Part shown: positions 7,829 through 24,966 of the stretch, piece by piece
Layout of the letters: every line of letters starts with the position of its first letter
How positions within the stretch are numbered: the stretch's first letter is position 1
The notes under the pieces: model-generated
Told to the model about the DNA's origin: nothing
What the model saw: the letters and a program-made list of their open reading frames with translations, nothing else
Database searches by the model: none
DNA from: an uncultured Verrucomicrobiae bacterium
GTDB lineage: Bacteria; Verrucomicrobiota; Verrucomicrobiia; Limisphaerales; UBA1100
NCBI GenBank assembly: GCA_937775205.1
Contig: CALKBX010000009.1
Coordinates: 1 to 64,000, forward strand
Reading direction: 5' to 3'
Length of the DNA: 64,000 bases
Program-made: the position numbers and the translations under genes

Positions 7829-10528
7829 ATGAAGAATATTGGAACTTTGATGGCAGCGGCGGTGATGGTCGGTGCGTTGACCGTGGCGGCGAAACCGAGC
7901 GCGCTGGATTTATCGGCGCAGACGGGCAAGGGCGCGAAGGCGTTTTCGCTGAAGGGCAAGCACAGCCGGCAACAGCTCGTGGCCTCGGCTACGGACGCGG
8001 GGAAGTTGGCCGACGTGAGCGGCGCGGTGAAGTATTCCGCCACGCCAAAAAATATCGTGGCCATCAACGCCAATGGTATGGTCACGCCGCTGGGCGATGG
8101 CGAGGCGACCATCACGGCGACGCTCGCGGGCGGGTTGAAGTCGACGGTGAAGGTAACGGTCACGGAGTTTGGCGTCACGCAGCCAATTAATTTTGCGAAT
8201 GAAATTTCGCCCATCTTTACGAAGGCCGGCTGCAACTCGGGCGGTTGCCACGGCAAGAGCGGCGGGCAGAATGGGTTCCGGCTTTCGTTGCTCGGCTTCG
8301 AGCCGCAGGAGGATTATGAGTATCTCGTGAAGGAATCGCGCGGTCGGCGTTTGAGCCCGGCGGCACCGGAGAACAGTTTGTTGCTGCTCAAGGGCGCGGC
8401 TGTTTTGCCGCACGGCGGCGGCGCGCGGCTGGATCCGAAGAGCTACGATTACGCGCTGTTGGTGCGCTGGATAAAACAGGGCATGCCGCGCGGCAGCAAG
8501 GACGACCCGACGATTGTCGGGCTGGAGGCGTATCCCAAGCAGCGGTTGGTGAGTGCAAACGGGGCGCAACAGTTGACGGTGACGGCGATTTACAGCGATG
8601 GCCACACGGAGGACGCCACGCACATCGCGACTTACGAGGCGAACGACAAGGAGATTGCCGAGGTGGACAAAACCGGCCGCGTGACGTTCTTCGAGCAGCC
8701 GGGCGATGTGTCGGTGATGATTCGTTATCTCGGCCAGGTGAGCGTGTATCAGGCGAGCGTGCCATTGGGCGCGCCGGTGGCGAAGGTGCCGCAGCCCCGC
8801 AACTTCATCGACAATCTCGTGTTCGAAAAACTCAAGCGCGTCGGCATGCCGCCCTCGGCGGTTTGTGATGACACCACTTTCATTCGGCGCGTGAGCATCG
8901 ATATCGCCGGCCGTCTGCCGACCGACGCGGAGGCCGAGGCGTTTCTGGAAAGCACAGATCCCGCCAAGCGCGATAAGCTCATCGACCGGCTGCTCGCGGG
9001 CACCGATTACGCGGATTATTTCGCCAACAAATGGGGCGCACTGCTGCGCAACAAACGATCGAGCGCCGCGGCGTTACGCGGCAACTACGCTTTCCACGGA
9101 TGGATTCGCGACAGCCTCCACAAGAATATGCGCTACGACGAGTTCACGCGCAACGTGCTCGCCGCCTCGGGCGACATGGCGCGGAACCCCGGCGCAATTT
9201 GGTATCGCGAGGTGAAGACGATGCAAACGCAAATGGAGGACGCCGCACAGCTTTTCCTCGGCACCCGAATGCAATGCGCGCAGTGCCACCATCATCCCTT
9301 CGAGAAATGGAGCCAAAAAGATTACTATAGTTTCAGCGCATTCTTCTCAACCGTCGGCCGCAAAGCGGGGAGCAACCCCGGCGAGGAGGTCATTTACCAC
9401 ACCCGCAAGGTCGCGCAGACCGCCAATAAAAAAGACGGCGGCACCGTAAAAGCCACCGGTCTCGGCGATGAACCGCTGGACCTCACGGCTGATGACGACC
9501 CACGCCACGCGTTGGTCGATTGGCTGTCGAAGCCCACCAATCCGTTCTTTGCGCAAACACTGGTGAACCGATACTGGAAACATTTTTTCAGCCGCGGCCT
9601 CGTGGAGCCAGAGGATGACATGCGCGAGACGAACCCCGCCGTGAACCCCGAGTTGCTTGAGGCATTGGCGCAGTATTTTATCAAGAGTGGTTTTGATATG
9701 AAACAGCTCATCCGAACCATTTGCCAGTCGCGGACGTATCAGCTCAGCTCGATTCCCAATGACTTCAACGCGAAGGATAAAACTTACTTCAGTCGATATT
9801 ATCCAAAACGTCTGAACGCCGAGGTGCTCTATGACGCCATCAACCAAATGACCGGCTCGCAGCCGAGCTTCAGCGGGCTGCCCGTGGGCACGCGCGCGGT
9901 GCAGCTGCCGGACAACAGCTTCAACAGCCAGTCGTATTTCCTGACGGTGTTCGGCCGGCCGGATAGCTCCAGCTCCTGCGAGTGCGAGCGGTCGAGCGAC
10001 GCCAGTCTCGCGCAGAGTTTGCATCTGCTCAACTCCAAGGACATCCAAGGCAAACTCGCCAGCGCCAGCGGCCGCGCGGCGAATCTCTCCAAAGCCAAGA
10101 CACCCGCCGGCGAAGCGTTGGCCAAGGCGAAGGCCGAACAAGCTGCCGCCGACAAGGCGTTGGCTGCGGTGACCGCTCAAGTCGAAAAGGCAACGGCCAA
10201 CGCCAAGACCGATGTCCTCAAGAAAAAACTCGCCGCCCTCATCGACACCAAGCAAAAGCCCGCGCAAGCCAAGGCGGCTGCAGCGAAGGGAGTGTTTGAA
10301 AAAGCGCAGGTCGCCGCGTCGGTGGAGGAGGAGAAGCGCGTTCGCGGTCTGTTCCTGTTGGCGTTTGCCCGCGAGCCATCTGGCAGCGAGGTGTTGCTTG
10401 CCCGCGCGCATCTCGAGCGCGCCATCAAGGACAAGGACGGCAAAGAAAAACCCGCCGAGCGCAAGGCTTCCTACGAAGACATCATTTGGGCGCTCTTTAA
10501 CACAAAAGAGTTTCTCTTCAACCACTAA
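7829..10528 (+). CDS. DUF1549/DUF1553 domain protein with N-terminal Ig-like (BIG2) domain
   Basis: Signal peptide; FTKAGCNSGGCHGKSGGQNGFRLSLLGF; CDDTTFIRRVSIDIAGRLPT; MQCAQCHHHPFEKWSQKDYYSFSAFF; HLLNSKDIQGKL...VRGLFLLAFAREPS, interrupted by a K/A-rich insert. Confidence 0.92.
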   Translation: MKNIGTLMAAAVMVGALTVAAKPSALDLSAQTGKGAKAFSLKGKHSRQQLVASATDAGKLADVSGAVKYSATPKNIVAINANGMVTPLGDGEATITATLAGGLKSTVKVTVTEFGVTQPINFANEISPIFTKAGCNSGGCHGKSGGQNGFRLSLLGFEPQEDYEYLVKESRGRRLSPAAPENSLLLLKGAAVLPHGGGARLDPKSYDYALLVRWIKQGMPRGSKDDPTIVGLEAYPKQRLVSANGAQQLTVTAIYSDGHTEDATHIATYEANDKEIAEVDKTGRVTFFEQPGDVSVMIRYLGQVSVYQASVPLGAPVAKVPQPRNFIDNLVFEKLKRVGMPPSAVCDDTTFIRRVSIDIAGRLPTDAEAEAFLESTDPAKRDKLIDRLLAGTDYADYFANKWGALLRNKRSSAAALRGNYAFHGWIRDSLHKNMRYDEFTRNVLAASGDMARNPGAIWYREVKTMQTQMEDAAQLFLGTRMQCAQCHHHPFEKWSQKDYYSFSAFFSTVGRKAGSNPGEEVIYHTRKVAQTANKKDGGTVKATGLGDEPLDLTADDDPRHALVDWLSKPTNPFFAQTLVNRYWKHFFSRGLVEPEDDMRETNPAVNPELLEALAQYFIKSGFDMKQLIRTICQSRTYQLSSIPNDFNAKDKTYFSRYYPKRLNAEVLYDAINQMTGSQPSFSGLPVGTRAVQLPDNSFNSQSYFLTVFGRPDSSSSCECERSSDASLAQSLHLLNSKDIQGKLASASGRAANLSKAKTPAGEALAKAKAEQAAADKALAAVTAQVEKATANAKTDVLKKKLAALIDTKQKPAQAKAAAAKGVFEKAQVAASVEEEKRVRGLFLLAFAREPSGSEVLLARAHLERAIKDKDGKEKPAERKASYEDIIWALFNTKEFLFNH

Positions 10529-10632
10529 CTCGGAGGCTCGATGGGCGAAAGCGAACGGAGCAAACCGCATCGGATGCTGCTCTTTGGCAAACCGATTGAA
10601 GAATTGTTATAACTCCACCTAAATACATACAC

Positions 10633-13600
10633 ATGAAAAAGGCACTCCTCCTTGGATTTTTTGCGGCACTCGTGGCCGCGTTTGACGCTTCGGCGCAGCA
10701 GCTTCCGCGCGCGCGCATCACCAGCATTTTTCCCGCGGGCGGTCAGCAAGGCACTCGCGTGGACGTCACCATCACCGGAGGCGATCTTGATGGCGCAAAG
10801 CAGCTTTTCTTTTCGCACAAAGGCATCACCGCCGCGCAAAAGAAGGACGACAAAGGCAACGTCGTGGCCAACCAATACACCGTCGCCATCGCCAAGAATG
10901 TGACCGTGGGAATTTACGACGTGCAAGTCGGCGGCGGCCAATTTGGCATCTCGAATGTGCGCGCCTTCGCGGTCGGCGATTTGCCGGAGGAAAAATCCAC
11001 CGCCGGCACATCGGCAGACAAGGCGATGGAAGTGAAGCTCGGCACCACCATCAACGGCCAGACCATCTCGCGCAATTACAGCTATTTTAAAGTGACGCTG
11101 GAAAAGGGCCAGGGCATCCTCGTCGAGTGTCAAGCGGCGGACATCGATTCCAAGATGGCGCCGGTGCTCGTGCTCAAGGACGCTAATGGACTGGAACTCG
11201 AACGCAATCGCTTCGGCGAGCCACTCGATTTCACGCCGCTCAGCGATGGCGATTATTTCGTGGCTCTGCACGACTTCACCTACGGCGGCGGCGCGGAGCA
11301 CGTTTATCGGCTCACCATTTCGCAACGCCCGTACATCGACTTCATCATCCCACCCGTTGGCAAGCCCGGCAGCAACGGCAAATACACCGTGTACGGCCGC
11401 AACCTCCCCGGCGGACAGGATGCCGGAATTGCGCTCGGCGGCAAGCCGTTGCAGAAAAAAGGCGTGACCATAGCACTGCCCGGCGATGCGGCCTCGCGCC
11501 TGAAGATTTCCAGCAGCACACCGGTCGGCCCTGTGGCCGCGGGTTTTGACGGCATCGACTACCGCCTTCCCAGCCCCGCCGGCGCGTCGAATCCCGTCCG
11601 CATTCACTTCGCCGAGAGCGCCGTCATTGCCGAGGCCACTGCCGATAACAATCGGCCCGAGAGCGCTCAGAAAATTTCTGTGCCGTGCGAATACGTCGGC
11701 CAGTTTTACCCGCGGCGCGACCGCGACTGGGTGACTTTCGAAGCGAAGAAAGGCGACATCTATTGGGTGGAGATCATCAGCGAACGCCTCGGCGCGCCCA
11801 CGAATCCGTTCTTCCGAATTCAGCGCGTCACCAAGGACGACAAGGGCGTGGAAAAAGTCAGCACCGTCAAGGAGGTGCAGGACAGCCCAGTGAACATCGG
11901 CGGCTCCACGTTCAACACATCTTCCATCGACCCCTCCTTCCGCTTCGTCGCGCCGGATGACGGCACCTATCGCATTTTGCTATACGACCTTTACAGCCGC
12001 GGCAGCGCCGACAGCCTGTACCGCCTGTCCATCCACAAGGAGGTGCCCGACTTCCGTCTCGTGGCCATGCCCGAGGGCGCGCTCGCTATTGCGAACCAAC
12101 CCGTGCCCATGCCCACCGGCTTCCTCCGGCGCGGCCAGGTTTTGCCTATAAAAGTGATGGCATTTAAACGCGATAATTTTAACGAACCCATCGAGCTGTC
12201 CATCGCTGGTTTGCCCGCGCACCTCACCGCCAGCAAAGCCACCCTCGCCGCCGGCCAAAACAGCGCGCTCATTATGCTCAGCGCAAAGACCAACGCTCCC
12301 AACTGGTTCGGTAACATCACCATTATCGGCAAGTCTAAGATTGCCGACAAACCTGTCACTCGAACAGCGCGTAACGCTGGCGTGTCCAGCATTGTTTACG
12401 ACAGCACCTCAAAACGCAGCAATGTTCGCGCGCGCCTGACCAACACGTTGCAGTTGCAGGTCACCGACCAGGAAACCATCCCCGTCGCCATGGCCCCCAA
12501 GGAAAACAAGGTTTATGAGCACTCCGTCTTCGGTCAGTTGAAGATTCCGTTTACCATCAAGCAGGACGCCGCCTTCAAGGCCGTGGACAAGAAAGTGAAG
12601 TGCCTTGGCCATAGCTCGCTGTCAAAATTCAAGGATGTGACCTTTGCCAAAAACAAGGATGAGGGAACACTCGACCTGAATTTAAACACCTACAAGCTTC
12701 CGGTTGGGGAGCACGTGCTCTATCTGCGCACACAGGTGAAAGGCAAATACAGCCGCGTCCCGAAGGCGAAGATTGACGCTGCCAAAGAGGAGCAGAAGAA
12801 AGCTGACGCGGTTGCTGTCGAAGCCGACAAGGTGGCCAAGGCTGCCACAACTGAACTAAACACAGCCAAGACCGTCGCCACCAAGGCCGCCACCGACAAG
12901 ACCACTGCCGACAAGATGGTGATTGCCGCAAAGGCCGCGCAGGCGACCGCGCAAAAGGCGTTTGATGGCGCCACGGCTACTGCCAAGGCCTCCGTGACCG
13001 TTGCCGCGACCGCCAAGGTCAACGCCACCAAAATCGCGACTGCATTGACCACCGCGACCAAGGACGCCACCACCAAGCGTACTACCGCCACAACGACTAA
13101 GAAGGCCCACGATGGACTTATCACGACAAAACAAAAGCCCGCGCAAACCAAGGCGACCGCCGCCGCGACGGCACTGACCAAGGCGCAGACCGACAAGACC
13201 GCCGCTGACAAGGCGTTGACCACGGCGAATGCCGAGGTCGCCAAGGCCAAGACTACTTCAGACACCGCCGAGGTTGCCGCCAAGGCTGCTGAGGCTCTAT
13301 CCAAGAAAATCGCCGGCGACGCCAACAAGAAGAAGGAAGAAAAGGACAAGGTCGCCAAGGGCGCCGTCACCAAGCGCGCCGCCGTCACGACGGCGAAGAA
13401 GGTGCACGACGATCTCGTCACCACAAAACAAAACCCCGCGCAAACCAAGGCGAGCGCCGCCGCGACGGCGCTGACCAAGGAGCAGACCGACAAAACCGCC
13501 GCTGACAAGGCGTTGACCACGGTGAATGCCGAGGTCGCCAAGGCTAAGACTGCTTCGGACACCGCCGAGGTTGCCGCCAAGGCCGCTGAGACGGTTACGG

Positions 13601-14289
13601 CCACTGCCAAGACCACCGACGCCAAGGCCAAGGTCAACCAAACTGCCGCCGACAAGAAGGTGGTTGATACGAAGAATGCCACCACCACCGCCAAGACGGC
13701 TCTCGACAAGTCCGTTGCTGCTACAAAAGCCGGCGAGATCAAGGCCGCTGCTGTTGCCAAGGTTGCCACCGATACTAAGGTCAAGCAGGACGCCGCACAA
13801 AAGAAGAATGATGACCTCGCCGCAAAGAAAAAGGCTACCGATACCGCCAAGGCCGCCGCCGCCGCGAACACGAAGAAGCTCACCGATACTGGCAAGCCGA
13901 AGGACATCACTGCGACATTCTTCAGCACGCCAATTACCGTGAAGGTCACCGCCGCGCCCATTGATCTGAAGCCCGTCGCTGCCAGCCAAGTGAAGCAGGG
14001 TGCGAAGGTGGAGTTCACCGTGAATCTAGACCGCAAGTATGGCTTCGCTGACCCCGTCACCATCGGTGTCGCGCTGCCTAAGGGCACCGCCGGCCTATCC
14101 ATCAGCAAGCTGACCATTGCCAAGGATCAGAAGACCGGGAAGTTCACCATCACCGCCACCGACAAGGCTACAGTCGGCGATCTCGCGTTGAACATCGAGG
14201 CGACCATGAAATTGCAGAATCAAACCATCAAGGTAACCCAGTCGCTGAAGCTGAAGGTCATCGAGGTGAAAAAAACCGCAAAGAAATAA
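10633..14289 (+). CDS. Secreted pre-peptidase C-terminal (PPC)-domain-like protein with long Ala/Lys/Thr-rich helical region
   Basis: Signal peptide; ITSIFPAGGQQGTRVDVTITGGDLDGAKQLFFSHKGI; repeated PPC-like segments (YFKVTLEKGQGILVECQAADIDSKMAPVLVLKDANGLELERN); low-complexity KTAADKALTTANAEVAKAK region. Confidence 0.8.
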   Translation: MKKALLLGFFAALVAAFDASAQQLPRARITSIFPAGGQQGTRVDVTITGGDLDGAKQLFFSHKGITAAQKKDDKGNVVANQYTVAIAKNVTVGIYDVQVGGGQFGISNVRAFAVGDLPEEKSTAGTSADKAMEVKLGTTINGQTISRNYSYFKVTLEKGQGILVECQAADIDSKMAPVLVLKDANGLELERNRFGEPLDFTPLSDGDYFVALHDFTYGGGAEHVYRLTISQRPYIDFIIPPVGKPGSNGKYTVYGRNLPGGQDAGIALGGKPLQKKGVTIALPGDAASRLKISSSTPVGPVAAGFDGIDYRLPSPAGASNPVRIHFAESAVIAEATADNNRPESAQKISVPCEYVGQFYPRRDRDWVTFEAKKGDIYWVEIISERLGAPTNPFFRIQRVTKDDKGVEKVSTVKEVQDSPVNIGGSTFNTSSIDPSFRFVAPDDGTYRILLYDLYSRGSADSLYRLSIHKEVPDFRLVAMPEGALAIANQPVPMPTGFLRRGQVLPIKVMAFKRDNFNEPIELSIAGLPAHLTASKATLAAGQNSALIMLSAKTNAPNWFGNITIIGKSKIADKPVTRTARNAGVSSIVYDSTSKRSNVRARLTNTLQLQVTDQETIPVAMAPKENKVYEHSVFGQLKIPFTIKQDAAFKAVDKKVKCLGHSSLSKFKDVTFAKNKDEGTLDLNLNTYKLPVGEHVLYLRTQVKGKYSRVPKAKIDAAKEEQKKADAVAVEADKVAKAATTELNTAKTVATKAATDKTTADKMVIAAKAAQATAQKAFDGATATAKASVTVAATAKVNATKIATALTTATKDATTKRTTATTTKKAHDGLITTKQKPAQTKATAAATALTKAQTDKTAADKALTTANAEVAKAKTTSDTAEVAAKAAEALSKKIAGDANKKKEEKDKVAKGAVTKRAAVTTAKKVHDDLVTTKQNPAQTKASAAATALTKEQTDKTAADKALTTVNAEVAKAKTASDTAEVAAKAAETVTATAKTTDAKAKVNQTAADKKVVDTKNATTTAKTALDKSVAATKAGEIKAAAVAKVATDTKVKQDAAQKKNDDLAAKKKATDTAKAAAAANTKKLTDTGKPKDITATFFSTPITVKVTAAPIDLKPVAASQVKQGAKVEFTVNLDRKYGFADPVTIGVALPKGTAGLSISKLTIAKDQKTGKFTITATDKATVGDLALNIEATMKLQNQTIKVTQSLKLKVIEVKKTAKK
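13096..13600 (+). repeat. Degenerate direct repeat with 297-bp (99-codon) offset inside the PPC-like gene
   Basis: KQKPAQTKATAAATALTKAQTDKTAADKALTTANAEVAKAKTTSDTAEVAAKAAE is repeated 99 residues later as KQNPAQTKASAAATALTKEQTDKTAADKALTTVNAEVAKAKTASDTAEVAAKAAE; DNA is near-identical (gcgcaaacc at 13141 vs 13438). Confidence 0.9.
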
Positions 14290-14310
14290 CCGACAATTTA
14301 AAATAGAACC

Positions 14311-17300
14311 ATGAAACAGACCCGAATCCTCATAGTGGGGGCCGCGCTTGTCGCCGGCCTGTTGGCCAACAGCGCTGATGCCGCCAAGAAAGGCCCGCTG
14401 CCCGTCTCTGAAATCAAGCGCGCCAAGCCGGTCGATTTCCAAAGCGAAATCCTCCCCTTCCTCCGCGCCAACTGTCTCGCCTGCCATAACCAAACCAAAG
14501 CCAAAGCTGATCTCATCCTCGAGACGCCGCAGGACATCCTCGAAGCCGACGCCGTCGTTCCCGGCAAGCCGATGGAAAGCATCCTTTTCCAACTCGCCGC
14601 GCACCTCGACGACCCCCCCATGCCGCCGCCCGAAAACAAAGCCTCCGCCAAGTCGCTCAACCCCCAGCAGCTCGGCCTGCTCAAACTATGGATTGCCCAA
14701 GGCGCGAAGGGCGTCGTCAAGGCCACGCGAACCGTCAACTGGCAGCCGCTGCCCGAGGGCCTCAATCCCATTTACTCCGTCGCCATCACGCCCGACGGCC
14801 AATACGCCGCCGCCGGCCGCGCTAACCAAATCTTCATCTACCACGTCCCGACCAAAAAACTCATCACCCGCCTCACCGACCCCGAGCTGCTCAAGGACAA
14901 CAAATACAAAAACGGCGTTAGTCATCGCGACCTCGTCCACTCGCTCACCTTCAACCAAACCGGCGACCTCCTCGCCAGTGGCGGATACCGCGAAGTAAAA
15001 CTTTGGCGCCGTCAACCCGTCAAAGCCCTACGCAGCTTCCCGCTCAACACCGCCGACGCCATCATCGCGCTCAGTCCCGACGGCCAGTCACTCGCTGTTG
15101 CCGAGGCCAACAACATCCGCCTCATCAACCCCAACACCGGCGCCGCCATCAAGACCCTCGCCGGCCACAAGATGCCCGTCAGCTACGTCGCCTTCTCCCC
15201 CGACAACAAGCAACTCCTCTCCGGAGCCGCCGATGGCACCTACCACATTTGGACAATCGCCGATGGCAAATACATCGCGCCCAAGCTCCAGCTCGTCAAG
15301 CCTTCCAAAATCACCGCCGTCACCTGGACCACCGACGGCAAACTCCTCGTCACCGCCCACGAAGACAACCTCATCCGCTCATGGGATCTCGCCACCGCGA
15401 AAACCATTAACGCTACCGTCGCCCAAGCCCTTGTCGCCGCCAAAAAAACCGCGACTGACTCGCTCAAGCTCTTCACCGCCGCCGACCTAACCGTCAAAGC
15501 CGCCGTCATCAAAGCCGCCGCCGCAAAAGCTATCGCCACCAAAGCCGCCACCGCATTGACCGCCGCGACGAAGGACGCCGCCACCAAGAACACCGCCGCC
15601 ACGAATACGAAGAAGGCGTACGACACCGCGATTGCCCAAAAGCAAAAACCCGCCGAGACCAAGCTCGCGGCCGCCAAAATGGCAACCACCAGCGCCACCA
15701 CCGCAAAGACGAATGCAGACAAAGCGCTCACCACCGCGAAGGCCGCGACCGCCGACGCCAAGAAGCCGTTCGACATCGCCGATGCCGTCGCCAAGACCGC
15801 CGAAGCGAAAGCAAAAATAATCGCCGCCGACGCCAACAAAAACCCCGCCGAAAAACAAGCCGCCACGAAAACCGCCACCGACAAACGCAAACTTGCGAAC
15901 ATCGCCAAGACCGCATTGACACAAATACAGGCGAAGGAAAAAATCGCGCAAACCGCAGTGACCACCGGCGCCACAAAACTCACCCAAGCGCAAGCCGCGC
16001 AAAAGGTCACCGCGACCGCATTGACCAACGCGACCGTCGCTGTCGCCAAAGCCAAGACAACTTCCGACAACGCCGAGAAAGCTGCCAAGACCGCCGCGAC
16101 AACAGCGGCCACCACCAAGACCGCCGACACGAAAGCGAAGGCCGATGTGCTCACCACCGCCAAAGCCATCGTCGACACCAAGAAAATCGCCGCCGCTGCC
16201 AAGGTGGAATCGGACAAGACGAAGGCCACCGAGACCGCCGCCGCCAAGGCCGGCCTCAAGCCGCACAAGGAAATGAAAGGCCACAGCCAACCCATCCTCG
16301 CCCTCACGCGTTTGCCGAATCATCCCACGCAGATTCTCTCCGGCAGCCGCGACGGCACTGTCCGCCATTGGGACGCCAACACCGCGCAAGCCATCCGCAG
16401 TATGGCCCACGGCGCACCGGTTTTCGCCATCGCCATCAGCCCCGATGCCACCAAGTTTGCCTCCGCCAGCGAAAACAAAACCGCCAAAATCTGGACCGCC
16501 AGCAACGGCAAACAAATCGCCGAGCTGCGCGGCCAACGCGACCTAAAAATTGACCTCGCCAAAAAAGAACGTCACCTCGCCTTCGCCAAGCGCGAGGTCA
16601 CCTATCACACCAACAATCTCAAGGCAAAAACCACCGCGCGAACGAAGGCCGCCGAGCGGTTAAAGAAATCCGATGAAGCCAAGAAAAAAGCCGAGGGAAT
16701 GCCCATCGCCTCGAAGAAAAAAATTCTCGATGACGCTCTCGCCGAAAAGAAAAAGAACGAGGACGCTTACAACAAGCTCAAGGCCGACTACGACGCCGAG
16801 GTGAAAACCTTCCCCGAATTGGACACGGTGGCCAAGACCTCCGAAGCCGCCGCCGCCAAGGCAAAAACCGCCGCTGCCAAGCCTAACGCCGATAAGGCTA
16901 AGGTCGCGCAGGACGCCGCCGCGAAAATCGCCACCGACAAGCGCATGGTCGCCAACGATTCCAAGATCAAACGCGACAAGCTCAACAAAGACCAAGCCGC
17001 CGCGAAGAAGACGCTCGACGCCACCGCCAAAAAAGTTACCACCGCCGACACGGAATACAAAAAACTGGAGGAGCCGCGCGTGCAGGCCGTCAACGAATTC
17101 AACCTCGCCACCAAGGCCAAGGCAAAATCCGACACCGAGGTGGCCAAGGCCGACGCTGGCAAGAAGGCCGCCGACACCGATTCCAAGGCGCGCGAGACCG
17201 CCGTCACCACCACCAAGGGAACCGTAACCCAAGCCGAAAAACCCATCCGCGCGATTGCATTTTCCGCCGACAGCCAAATGGTTTTCACCGGCGGCGACGA

Positions 17301-20020: not shown

Positions 20021-23000
20021 ATGAAAGCACTGATTCCGTCAGAAAATATGAACCGTTTCTCCAGGTTTCATTTCATGTTGCTCCTCGTAATCCACTTTGT
20101 TTCCTCAGCCGACGCAGCAGTCCCAGCTGAGAAAAACGGAGCCACTTTTCTGAAGACCAATTGCGTGAAATGCCATAATGCAGAAAAGCACAAGGGCGAT
20201 ATTCGGCTGGATCAGCTTGATTTGCGTGTGACTGGCGACAATCACGAATTGTGGAAAGAGGTTGTACATAACATTCAGCGGGGCGACATGCCGCCCAAGG
20301 ATGCCAAGCACCCCACGCAGGATGAACGTCGGGCGTTTCTTTCTGAGGCAATTGGAGCATTAACGAGGTACGAGGCGGACGCGAAGGGGCTGCGGGATCC
20401 CTTGACGCGCCTGACTAATAATCAGATCGCACATAGTCTCCAGGATTTATTAAAAACTCATGAGCATATTGCGGACCAGCTCATTGGTGACCCAATCGAC
20501 AAGTACGGCTTTTCCCGACAGGCAGAACTCGATCTTTCGGGTTCATACCTCAAGCTCTATACAGATGCGCTCGAACAGATCATCGAGCGGGCGATGCCAC
20601 CCATCAATCCAGTTCGGCCGGATGTGTTTCGCATCACTGGCAACGATTGGGAAAAATGCCATTGGGCGGGTGACAACTATCTTTACCTGGGGCATCGGCG
20701 ATTGTACGAAGGGCCAAAGTGGATCGGTGATGATTTCGAGATCCCGATACCACCCAAGCACGAATACCGAATGTTCCTACGTGAAAACAGGAGCAAGGGC
20801 AGATTTCGGATCAAGTTAACCTTACGCAATGAGCCGCCAACCGATGGGTATGGAGAGCATTTTCTGATCAAACCTGGATTAGCTATAGCCAAAGCGGTTC
20901 CCGGTCAGGAGGTGTTAAAAAATTCAGCCAAGCCACGCACCGTCCAAATCCCGGAGGCGGGCATCTACCAGGTGGATGTTTTCTTAAACCCGCCGAGAAA
21001 GGTGGCGGTCACCGCGGATGCTTCAAAATTACGGGAGGGATTGGTGGGTGCCTGGCGTTTAAACGGTGACACGCAGAGTGAATCCAAGCGCAAGGAATTG
21101 ACGGGCAAACTCGTGGGCGGCGCACAGTACCTTGATTCACCAATTGGCAAGGAAGGGAAGGCAATTTCCTTAGATGGGCATGATGATGCGTTGGTGATCC
21201 CGCGCAACCCCTTGATGGATGTGGGAAAAGGAAATTTTACCGTTGCGGCGTGGATTAACCCGAGCCAATTGCGACAAGGAGGCATTGTTTGTCTGGGCCG
21301 TTACAACTTGGTTCACGGATGGTATCTGGATATGCTGGATAAGGGCGTGTTGCGGATTGAGACAGTCAGTCCCGCCAATAAATTCAATGGGACCGTAGCT
21401 TCGAAACCAGGTATCATCCGGGTGAATACTTGGCAGCACGTGGCGGCGGTGGTGCGACGTGGGGAAAATCAAACACGATTGTACGTCAACGGTTTTGAGG
21501 TCGCCTCCGGAACCGTTGCTCCCACTAATTTGGACAATCCGACGGTGGCTTTGCACATTGGCCGGATACAGGGCTCACGGCTTTTCAAGGGGCAGATTGA
21601 TGAGGTCTGTTTTTACAAGCGAGCTCTGGACGTGAAGGAAATTCAGGCCCTCTTGGAATCGGGAAAACAATTCGTACGGGAACCCCTGGAATCACCGGAG
21701 GAACTGACCTTGAATTTGGGCGGCCGCGAATTTATCGGAACTATTCATCAACCGGCATTTTTGGGAGTTCGCTTACCAGCGGGGCCACTGCAGGTGAGCG
21801 CTCGCTATGGAGACGACTTAACCCCTTACCGGATAGTCCTTACGCCAATGCCTGCGAAGAGTGACCTTGCTATTCGATATAGAAAATTTGAACAACGGGG
21901 GACCGCTCGCACGCCGCAAGAAATCGGCGTGTACCTCGATCAGTCCGGCAAGCATCCTTACAAGTTGGTGGAGCCGATCACCGTCCCCGTCAAAGAAGGC
22001 CCGCAGCAATTTGAATTATTCGGCACCCTGGAAGATCATCTCGGCGTCGTTTCCGACCCCATTGTAGCCGAAGATCGAAGCCCCGGCTACTGGCTGAAGT
22101 TCCGCACGCTAACTATTGTAAATCATAACAAGCTCAAAGGATTTAAACTGCCTGCGCGATTTAATTGGACTGAACCAATTTATCTTGTGCGGCCCGATGA
22201 ACAATGGATCAAGGCGTTTGGCCATACTCACGGTTTAATTCCTTCGGCAAATGGAAACAACGGCACACACGGCAATGAAGCAAAAGGCCCCGCGGTATAT
22301 CCCGAGGCGATGAAAACACATGGCTACGTGGTTATCGAAAAGGTGGAGTTTGAAACGCCGTTTTCTGAAAGTTGGCCACCTCCCTCCCTTCAGCCATTCT
22401 TAACAGAGGATAAGCTAGAGCGAAAAGATATGACGGGCAAGTTGAAGGCATTCGCCGCAAAGGCTTGGCGTGGGCCGCTGACCAAGTCCGACACGATACA
22501 TATAGATAAGATATGGGCGGAAGAAATTAAGGCTAGTAGCAGTGACCTTGAAGCCCTGCGAAGCTCAATCGTTACAATCCTTAGCGACCCACGGTTTCTG
22601 TACCTGCGACAATCAAACAATTACGACTTAGTCTCCCGCTTGTCTTACTTCCTTTGGAACGGGCCACCGGATACGTCGTTGACCACGTTGGCCGGTGAGC
22701 AGGAACATCTTGATGATTTTAAAATTGAACAGCAGGTGGATCGACTGCTTGCCGACAAACGTGCGCGCCGATTTATTGAAGATTTTGTTGCGCAATGGAT
22801 CGATTTCACCCGATTGGATCAGATCGCGGTAGATCCGAATTACTACCCTTCATTCAAAGACCGTGGCATGCGAATCAGGGAATACATGAAACTGGAATGT
22901 GTCGAATTCTTTGCGCGCGTTCTTCACAAGGATGTGAGTTGCCTCAGTTTTCTTGAATCTGATTTCGTGATGGTGAACGAAACAATGGCTGAGCATTATG

Positions 23001-23662
23001 GGATCACTGGCGTCTTCACGCCGAGATTTGTGCGCGTTGCTGCGCCCAATGATCGAGGTGGCGGCGTATTGGCGCAGGCTGCGGTCATGCTGGCCCAATC
23101 CAATGGGCAGGATGCCCACGCGGTAAACCGTGGGGTTTGGATTCGTTCGCGACTACTGGGTGATCCGCCGTCCGATCCGCCACCGGATGTGGCTTCATTG
23201 CCGGAACCCTCCAGCGATGCCAAAGCCAGGGTCCCAGTATCAATCAAGCAAAGACTGGATTTGCACCTCAAGACAGGCACAACGTGTTACGACTGCCACA
23301 AAGATATCGACCCGTGGGGCATTGCCACCGAAGGCCTCGATGCGGTGGGCCTACTGCGAAGGACAATTAAAAAAGCTGGCCCAGTTGTTAAGAAAGTCAC
23401 GATTGACGAACAAGAGATCGACGGCCTTTTGCCGTTGAAAAAATTCCTTGTCGAACAGCGCCACAAGCAATTCGCTTATGGCTTTACCCGTCACATGCTT
23501 TCCTATGCTCTGGGCAGAACGCTCACGTTTCGCGATGAGCAGACTGTCCTGGCGCTACAATCGGAGTTCGAAAAAAGCGGATACAAAATGCGGAGCCTGA
23601 TCAAAGCGATTGTTACTTCAAGCGTTTTTAGGCAAGGAGCTAAATTAAAGACACAAGAATGA
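20021..23662 (+). CDS. DUF1587/DUF1592/DUF1588/DUF1585-type cytochrome-like protein with internal LamG (ConA-like) domain
   Basis: FLKTNCVKCHNAEKHKGDIRLDQLDL; LGAW...GKAISLDGHDDALVIPRNPLMDVGKGNFTVAAWINPSQ (LamG); LVSRLSYFLWNGPPD; TTCYDCHKDIDPWGIATEGLDAVG; QFAYGFTRHMLSYALGRTLTFRDE. Confidence 0.9.
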   Translation: MKALIPSENMNRFSRFHFMLLLVIHFVSSADAAVPAEKNGATFLKTNCVKCHNAEKHKGDIRLDQLDLRVTGDNHELWKEVVHNIQRGDMPPKDAKHPTQDERRAFLSEAIGALTRYEADAKGLRDPLTRLTNNQIAHSLQDLLKTHEHIADQLIGDPIDKYGFSRQAELDLSGSYLKLYTDALEQIIERAMPPINPVRPDVFRITGNDWEKCHWAGDNYLYLGHRRLYEGPKWIGDDFEIPIPPKHEYRMFLRENRSKGRFRIKLTLRNEPPTDGYGEHFLIKPGLAIAKAVPGQEVLKNSAKPRTVQIPEAGIYQVDVFLNPPRKVAVTADASKLREGLVGAWRLNGDTQSESKRKELTGKLVGGAQYLDSPIGKEGKAISLDGHDDALVIPRNPLMDVGKGNFTVAAWINPSQLRQGGIVCLGRYNLVHGWYLDMLDKGVLRIETVSPANKFNGTVASKPGIIRVNTWQHVAAVVRRGENQTRLYVNGFEVASGTVAPTNLDNPTVALHIGRIQGSRLFKGQIDEVCFYKRALDVKEIQALLESGKQFVREPLESPEELTLNLGGREFIGTIHQPAFLGVRLPAGPLQVSARYGDDLTPYRIVLTPMPAKSDLAIRYRKFEQRGTARTPQEIGVYLDQSGKHPYKLVEPITVPVKEGPQQFELFGTLEDHLGVVSDPIVAEDRSPGYWLKFRTLTIVNHNKLKGFKLPARFNWTEPIYLVRPDEQWIKAFGHTHGLIPSANGNNGTHGNEAKGPAVYPEAMKTHGYVVIEKVEFETPFSESWPPPSLQPFLTEDKLERKDMTGKLKAFAAKAWRGPLTKSDTIHIDKIWAEEIKASSSDLEALRSSIVTILSDPRFLYLRQSNNYDLVSRLSYFLWNGPPDTSLTTLAGEQEHLDDFKIEQQVDRLLADKRARRFIEDFVAQWIDFTRLDQIAVDPNYYPSFKDRGMRIREYMKLECVEFFARVLHKDVSCLSFLESDFVMVNETMAEHYGITGVFTPRFVRVAAPNDRGGGVLAQAAVMLAQSNGQDAHAVNRGVWIRSRLLGDPPSDPPPDVASLPEPSSDAKARVPVSIKQRLDLHLKTGTTCYDCHKDIDPWGIATEGLDAVGLLRRTIKKAGPVVKKVTIDEQEIDGLLPLKKFLVEQRHKQFAYGFTRHMLSYALGRTLTFRDEQTVLALQSEFEKSGYKMRSLIKAIVTSSVFRQGAKLKTQE

Positions 23663-24966
23663 TGGCTAAGAGAATGAATATTAATCGACGTACATTTCTT
23701 CGCGGTGCTGGCGGTGTGGCCCTGAGTCTGCCGATTCTCGATTGCATGGCGTCCAATCCGGCAAGTGAAATGCCCAAGCGGCTCCTAGCGCTGTATGTGG
23801 GGCACGGATTCGCCCTGCATGGTGATTGGAGTTGGTACCCGAAATTGGTCGATGGCCAAATGCGCTTCGGCAAGTCAATGGAAGCCTTTAACCCGTTGGC
23901 TAAGCACGTTACCATTGTAAAAGGATTGGAGCATCCCCATTGCGTGAGTGCCGGCGGGCACAGTACCGCGGATTCATTCCTTACCGGCAGCAACCCCGCC
24001 GCAACGGTAAAAAGCTCGTCGTTGGACCAGGTTGCCGCGATGACCCACGGACATAAAACGCGTTACCCGAGTCTTGTGCTTGGGAATGAAGGAGGTTTGG
24101 GCGGCGAAGGGAGGTCGAACACGCTTTCTTACAATCAATTCGGCCGCGGCATTCCTTCCTCGAACAACTTGCGTGGATTGTATGACGGAATGTTTAATTC
24201 CGATCCGCAACTCCAAAAAGGGCAACGTTCGCGACTGGCATCCGACAAGCGTAGGCTCGATCGCGTTCTGGAGTCTTACCGCGAGATGAAACGCAAGCTC
24301 GGACGCGACGATTCGCAGAAGCTGGAGCACTACCTGCACGCATTGCGAGATGTGGAGAAAGAGATCGAGCGCATGGAGCGCTGGACGGCAACTCCCAAGC
24401 CAAAGGTGCCCACAGACGAGTTGGCCCTTAACGCCTCCGTGCAAGATCCGGCGGCTTTCATCCGCACGATGTACAACCTCATCTATCTGGCGTTCAAGAC
24501 AGATTCAACCCGTTATGCGACCTACATGCTGCAGAGCATGAACAGCAGCAAGTGGGACAACATTCCGATCGCTCTCGGGCTCGGAGTCACCCACCATCTG
24601 CTGGCCCACAACGCGCTACAAGGAGGTGGGAATCTGGTTAAACTTGGCAAGTACGACAAGTTCCAGGCAGACCTTCTGGCAGAGTTCATCACTAAGCTGG
24701 CGAACACACCTGAGGGTGAAGGAACGATGCTCGACAATACGGTTGTGCTCTACGGCAGCAGCAACAGCCAGACGCACGTCAACACCAACTATCCTATGAT
24801 GTTAGTGGGAGGCAAAAAACTTGGTCTCAAACAGGGTGCGTTTCATGGTTTTGGAAAAAAAGCACCGCCACTGTCCAACCTCTACCTAACGCTGATAAAA
24901 GCACTGGAAGTCCCCGCCCAGAAATTCTCCGACAGCAACGGAACCATTCGAGAAATCATCGCTTGA
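23659..24966 (+). CDS. DUF1552 domain-containing protein
   Basis: NINRRTFLRGAGGVALSLPILDCMA; GSNPAATVKSSSLDQVAAM; LYGSSNSQTHVNTNYPMMLVGG; overlaps the stop of the DUF1592-type gene (translational coupling). Confidence 0.92.
   Translation: MMAKRMNINRRTFLRGAGGVALSLPILDCMASNPASEMPKRLLALYVGHGFALHGDWSWYPKLVDGQMRFGKSMEAFNPLAKHVTIVKGLEHPHCVSAGGHSTADSFLTGSNPAATVKSSSLDQVAAMTHGHKTRYPSLVLGNEGGLGGEGRSNTLSYNQFGRGIPSSNNLRGLYDGMFNSDPQLQKGQRSRLASDKRRLDRVLESYREMKRKLGRDDSQKLEHYLHALRDVEKEIERMERWTATPKPKVPTDELALNASVQDPAAFIRTMYNLIYLAFKTDSTRYATYMLQSMNSSKWDNIPIALGLGVTHHLLAHNALQGGGNLVKLGKYDKFQADLLAEFITKLANTPEGEGTMLDNTVVLYGSSNSQTHVNTNYPMMLVGGKKLGLKQGAFHGFGKKAPPLSNLYLTLIKALEVPAQKFSDSNGTIREIIA

Follow-up and report, generated by a model that had tools for sequence, protein, structure and literature searches.

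We identified a recurrent Ala/Lys/Thr-rich helical module in three adjacent genes of an uncultured Verrucomicrobiae bacterium, whose products are otherwise unrelated, and in an unlinked gene of the same genome. Judged from its sequence, the shared element is a heptad-based coiled-coil repeat of ~66-99 residues bearing the motif KQKPA. The module is probably an arm-lengthening coil that unlike hosts gained in frame via ectopic recombination or gene conversion. The window analysed is a stretch of 64,000 nt, and copies from the genome it belongs to are referred to as own copies, while G001, G002, G004, G005, G009 and similar labels denote the genomes of relatives. The genomes searched are mostly metagenome-assembled, and such draft assemblies may mishandle repeats.

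The operon in the window comprises three DUF1501 genes followed by genes for a DUF1549/DUF1553 protein, a PPC-domain protein and a cytochrome-c-like protein with WD40 repeats. The first of these hosts (P0001, 7829..10528, forward strand, 899 aa; Pfam PSCyt2 6e-47, PSD1 2.7e-43) carries copy D, the second (P0002, 10633..14289, forward strand, 1218 aa; Pfam PPC 8.5e-07 and orthologues) carries coil B and the third (P0003, 14311..18186, forward strand, 1291 aa; Pfam WD40 2.5e-81) carries coils W1 and W2. The N-termini are signal-peptide-like by eye. Pfam domains and the conserved neighbourhood place the operon in the PSCyt2/PSD1 (DUF1549/DUF1553) type, which occurs in Verrucomicrobiota and Planctomycetota. 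An adjacent PSCyt/PSD cluster at 20021-24966 of the window, encoding a Laminin_G_3 and then a DUF1552 protein, is apparently a second PSCyt-type operon. The planctomycete-specific cytochrome (PSCyt/PSD) gene clusters of He et al. (2017, PMC5615132) are of the same kind as the host operon; in the sections of that text considered here their function is called unknown and a role in carbohydrate metabolism is suggested, coil insertions are not described and the word 'coiled' is absent. Our literature search returned no paper combining DUF1501 and DUF1553.

Stretches rich in Ala, Lys and Thr cover aa 735-838 of P0001, aa 699-1117 of P0002 and aa 352-667 and 746-990 of P0003. The peptides that a preliminary description of this DNA had assigned to the three proteins are all encoded where it placed them, with KQKPAQAK at aa 808 (nt 10250) of P0001, KQKPAQTK at aa 833 (nt 13129) and KQNPAQTK at aa 932 (nt 13426) of P0002, and KQKPAETK at aa 444 (nt 15640) of P0003. 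A full unit spans about 14 heptads, or 98-99 residues, around the core AKxxLDxLIAxKQKPAQTKxxAAxxxxTxAxxAKxxADKALxxAxAEV. Ala and hydrophobic residues recur with a period of 3.52 residues in B (power 16.5) and W1 (12.9) and of 3.50 in the W2 coil of G005 (13.3); neither own W2 nor D is dominated by the heptad period. Searches against Pfam gave no match at curated thresholds (only PUMA_CC, at 13.3 and 17.5 against a cut-off of 30.1 bits) and a PDB profile search with the module gave none at E<=1, so that assignment to a known coil family was rejected. A phage origin was likewise rejected, as a tblastn search of phage records gave no match.

Coils are ubiquitous in these proteins, which favours convergence, the reading in which independent low-complexity A/K/T helices came to look alike under shared compositional and heptad constraint. 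We built test profiles without any sequence of the source genus and scored them against dipeptide-, heptad- and hendecad-preserving shuffles, the heptad-phase shuffles being added because dipeptide shuffles lose coiled-coil periodicity. With an other-genera profile, coil B scored 95.9 bits (dipeptide-shuffle maximum 8.6, phase-shuffle maximum 5.8), W1 82.5 bits (16.1 and 7.6) and D 16.4 bits (9.0 and 10.2), and with the other-genera profile out2 all of these and the C26-type copy C296, from the unlinked gene, outscored the shuffles of all three kinds without exception. The local score of the PPC against the WD40 coil was 567, where heptad-preserving shuffles reached at most 276; a separate comparison gave Z about 25. 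Thus the composition-corrected comparison, which the preliminary description had named as a possible refutation of its claim of one homologous helical module in three otherwise unrelated proteins, bears that claim out for B and W1 strongly and for D weakly. On the side of convergence, the score of the G010 PPC coil does not exceed those of its shuffles, own W2 is borderline and 4 of 300 heptad shuffles equalled the pairwise score of D against W1. However, the silent codons common to unit B1 and C296 and the empty orthologous sites described below add to the profile scores against it; convergence is very unlikely as a general account and is refuted as regards coils B and W1 and the C26-type copy.

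Copy D is an insert within PSD1 (aa ~754-832; 10088..10324, forward strand, with KQKPAQAK at 10250-10273), delimited by alignment to orthologues with an empty site and assessed by profile and codon-shuffle tests. Filled sites were found only in the source genome, G004, G005 and G009, the last being labelled as another genus and carrying the insert on a partial contig. The DUF1553 alignment has the insert in own, G004 and G005 and lacks it in ten operon orthologues of other genera, and when the comparison was widened to 36 parsed orthologues it was present only in L138 (the G005 record), the remaining 35 being empty. The site is also empty in G001 (RAAKLSTDKREDDTKIRELF), which belongs to the same genus as the source, and orthologues without the insert, as sought in the preliminary description, are therefore in hand for DUF1553. 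Short or weak copies such as D and own W2 are less certain, and D alone is marginal in pairwise protein tests (Z 3-4). We take D as homologous, with less confidence, because its G009 orthologue reached 23.5 bits against a shuffle maximum of 15.1 and because its DNA scored 55 against B where codon shuffles reached at most 42 (0/300 attaining the observed score). On these alignments D is a clean gain, shared by four species within one small clade.

The whole PPC coil (aa 699-1117; 12727..13983, forward strand) was delimited from AlphaFold helices and orthologue comparison. A coil, mostly of ~90-400 aa, is present in most Verrucomicrobiota and Planctomycetota orthologues. Within the own coil lies an insertion specific to the source genome (aa ~806-990; 13048..13602, forward strand), made up of two 99-aa units between two long helices and absent from G001, G004 and G005 in the orthologue alignment. 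Unit B1 (13058..13354, forward strand, 297 nt, KQKPAQTK) is 88 % identical in DNA to unit B2 (13355..13651, forward strand, KQNPAQTK), the similarity in the DNA repeat comparison being clear over 13355-13590 of B2, and 82 % identical to the copy on contig C26; identity of the PPC units to the WD40 copy is 66-68 %. The AlphaFold model (mean pLDDT 77.9) has helices of 103 and 109 residues at aa 711-813 and 978-1086, which exit one beta strand and return to the next with the insert between them. By the topology of this predicted model the flanking helices would pair antiparallel, and the newest addition appears to lengthen a helical arm that existed before it. The insert is modelled poorly (low pLDDT at model residues 787-957, <50 at 787-939), so we only infer that it continues the arm. 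Foldseek with the PPC model gave low-TM matches only (TM of query length <=0.12 among the 50 listed).

Coil W1 of the WD40 protein (aa 359-656; 15385..16278, forward strand) lies between WD repeats, as placed by composition, orthologues and AlphaFold. The model (mean pLDDT 81.5), with which Foldseek matched WD40 propellers, gives it four long helices of 53, 81, 87 and 42 residues with a break at ADANKNPAEK (15826-15858, forward strand; model residues 415-421). The module copy within it (aa 416-541; 15556..15933, forward strand, KQKPAETK at 15640) scores 142.7 bits. Among the aligned orthologues W1 is a coil in g1 and g2 members only. The site of coil W2 (aa 770-987; 16618..17271, forward strand) is, by orthologue comparison, conserved as a coil order-wide, and W2 of G005, G004, G001, G012, G007 and others are clear module copies, unlike own W2, which scores 2.2 to 10 bits and is borderline against shuffles. 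KQKPA, described earlier as the anchor of the module, is thus present in D, the PPC coil and W1 and missing from own W2, where the KQKPA unit has been lost. Own W2 lacks ~192 residues found in the W2 of G005 and the junction falls inside an AAKPIAD repeat, an arrangement consistent with deletion between AAKPIAD repeats. Copies of the module are common in two paralogous WD40 proteins of the source family. The WD40 protein of a paralogous operon on contig C29 (L013, 8252-11725, forward strand) has a ~650-aa C-terminal coil with several KQKPA-type units.

A search of the source genome located a further module copy, the one 82 % identical in DNA to B1, at C26:34311-34532. The gene is intact in G001, where the module lies within a 428-aa ORF, and its orthologue in G002 has no insert and an empty site (FDGPVDTADQRKKVKNADLLNKLK), so the gene carries the module in two species (own and G001). 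The own gene (L005, minus strand) is frameshifted relative to that of G001, with loss of a single base and of a longer segment inside the module. Compared with G001 (C26 versus C296) the C26 copy has lost a stretch near CTGACCG repeats. No obvious target-site duplication and no distinct insertion ends were seen in the alignment of the C26-type gene, whose flanks have diverged.

The preliminary description had proposed copying within the operon among the three adjacent genes, and possibly a zippering together of the DUF1553, PPC and WD40 proteins through their like coils. B and W1 are clearly homologous, which would fit such copying. However, where B1 and W1 carry the same amino acid, 60 % of codons are identical against 46 % expected (p 0.10), whereas for B1 and C296 the figure is 73 % against 44 % (p 0.0005); B1 and B2 agree at 86 % against 50 %. 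In a tree of 61 rows and 70 columns, many forks of which are poorly resolved, the own PPC copies, C296 and D group with the WD40 copies of the paralogous operon, apart from own W1, which joins G005 W1 and the WD40 W2 copies. Support for the branch between the two groups is moderate (91/93). On these codon identities and this tree, the neighbouring WD40 gene is not demonstrated as the recent partner of the PPC units. Copying is therefore real, the silent sites and the tree tying those units to the unlinked gene, and the claim that it was recent and within the operon is not supported. The closest pair between genes is 82 % identical in DNA, so no near-identical transfer was caught.

For a zippered complex speak the conservation of the operon in Verrucomicrobiota and Planctomycetota and the usual presence of coils in both the PPC and WD40 proteins. 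Yet the length of the PPC coil shows no correlation with that of the WD40 coil (rho -0.20, p 0.22, n=41 operons, kinship uncorrected), in the Chthoniobacter-type loci L170, L183 and L188 the PPC coil measures 0, 0 and 42 aa beside WD40 coils of 231, 242 and 218 aa, and the DUF1553 coil is confined to one small clade. We regard copying among the three genes with zippering of their products as unlikely, and length-matched PPC/WD40 zippering was rejected for want of a coil-length correlation.

In-frame presence in several unrelated hosts, together with insertion into an unlinked gene whose G002 site is empty, would also be expected of a mobile coding element in its own right, self-inserting in frame and akin to the Rickettsia palindromic element or PARCEL. 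Such an element is highly improbable here, given that the module has no dyad symmetry, only imperfect inverted repeats of 10-14 nt (DNA folding z -0.53 and -1.09), no defined ends, copies that vary in length and phase, no obvious target-site duplication at the C26-type site with its diverged flanks, and only three loci found by profile in the source genome (contigs C9, C26 and C29). A mobile palindromic element was rejected on the lack of dyad symmetry.

A profile of ten module copies matched 18 of 20 genomes of the family, and a search of 113 genomes of the class with it gave matches in the source genome and G007 and weak ones in three genomes that belong to another family. The two hosts inspected in that family are ~1700-aa DUF1549/DUF1553-type proteins (L269, 1490-6739, minus strand; L270, 4379-9478, plus strand) with a ~1100-aa N-terminal A/K/Q coil of 98- and 87-residue repeats. 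Repeat homology across the class is tentative, because the f49-family repeat profile matches B (28.8 bits) and W1 (32.7 bits) and gives no match to D. Further coil proteins, ~1230-1250 aa long, occur in G007 and G011 (L267, 3768-7523, minus strand; L268, 2101-5787, minus strand), that of L267 with a PA14 domain by Pfam.

Gain of an arm-lengthening coil by unlike hosts thus remains our preferred account. Empty and filled orthologous sites show that DUF1553, PPC and the unlinked gene each gained copies in frame, each time in a single clade or species. The copies probably arrived when repetitive GCC-AAG-ACC codon tracts underwent ectopic recombination or gene conversion with one another. Losses may have come about by recombination between short direct repeats, which the AAKPIAD (W2) and CTGACCG (C26) junctions fit. 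The function is likely to be mechanical, in that a unit would extend a helical spacer or arm in an exported protein and leave the beta domains undisturbed; that a unit would lengthen the arm follows from the two ~100-residue PPC helices flanking the inserted units. More speculatively, and in our view rather doubtfully, the coiled-coil unit may be an interchangeable length cassette, recombined repeatedly among non-homologous exported proteins and retuning arm lengths across a surface or periplasmic apparatus within species. It is rare to find both the empty and the filled site when a protein has acquired a long helical insert from an unrelated gene. The present case offers two such genes and, in a third, an expansion specific to the species, and the operon concerned is conserved in two phyla. 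A hypothesis open to test is that in PSCyt/PSD operons the length of the coil serves as an adjustable spacer.

Several known systems resemble the module in part. PARCEL (2010, PMC2996958) is an amphipathic repeat-coding sequence whose 25-residue units show dyad symmetry at the DNA level and are scattered across taxa. Different numbers of its units occur in proteins that are unlike in other respects, many of them targeted to membranes, and intra-genomic shuffling has been proposed for it. The module likewise varies in number among unlike proteins and may also share the amphipathic character and the membrane-targeted or exported hosts, given the heptad period of 3.52 in B and W1 and the signal-peptide-like N-termini. 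The module differs in its unit of ~66-99 residues rather than 25 (99 aa in PPC; 98 and 87 aa in the f49 repeats), in being non-palindromic and almost confined to one family, and in its documented empty orthologous sites. Rickettsia palindromic elements are palindromic and insert in frame into unrelated protein genes. The module too sits in frame in unrelated genes, DUF1553 and the C26-type gene, for which orthologues with an empty site exist, but it is not palindromic, lacks constant ends and repeats internally. Tandem repeat units of bacterial coiled-coil and surface proteins are gained and lost by recombination, altering the length of a stalk or arm. Units of the module are also gained and lost, but unlike those of such tandem arrays they have moved between non-homologous genes, one of them unlinked.
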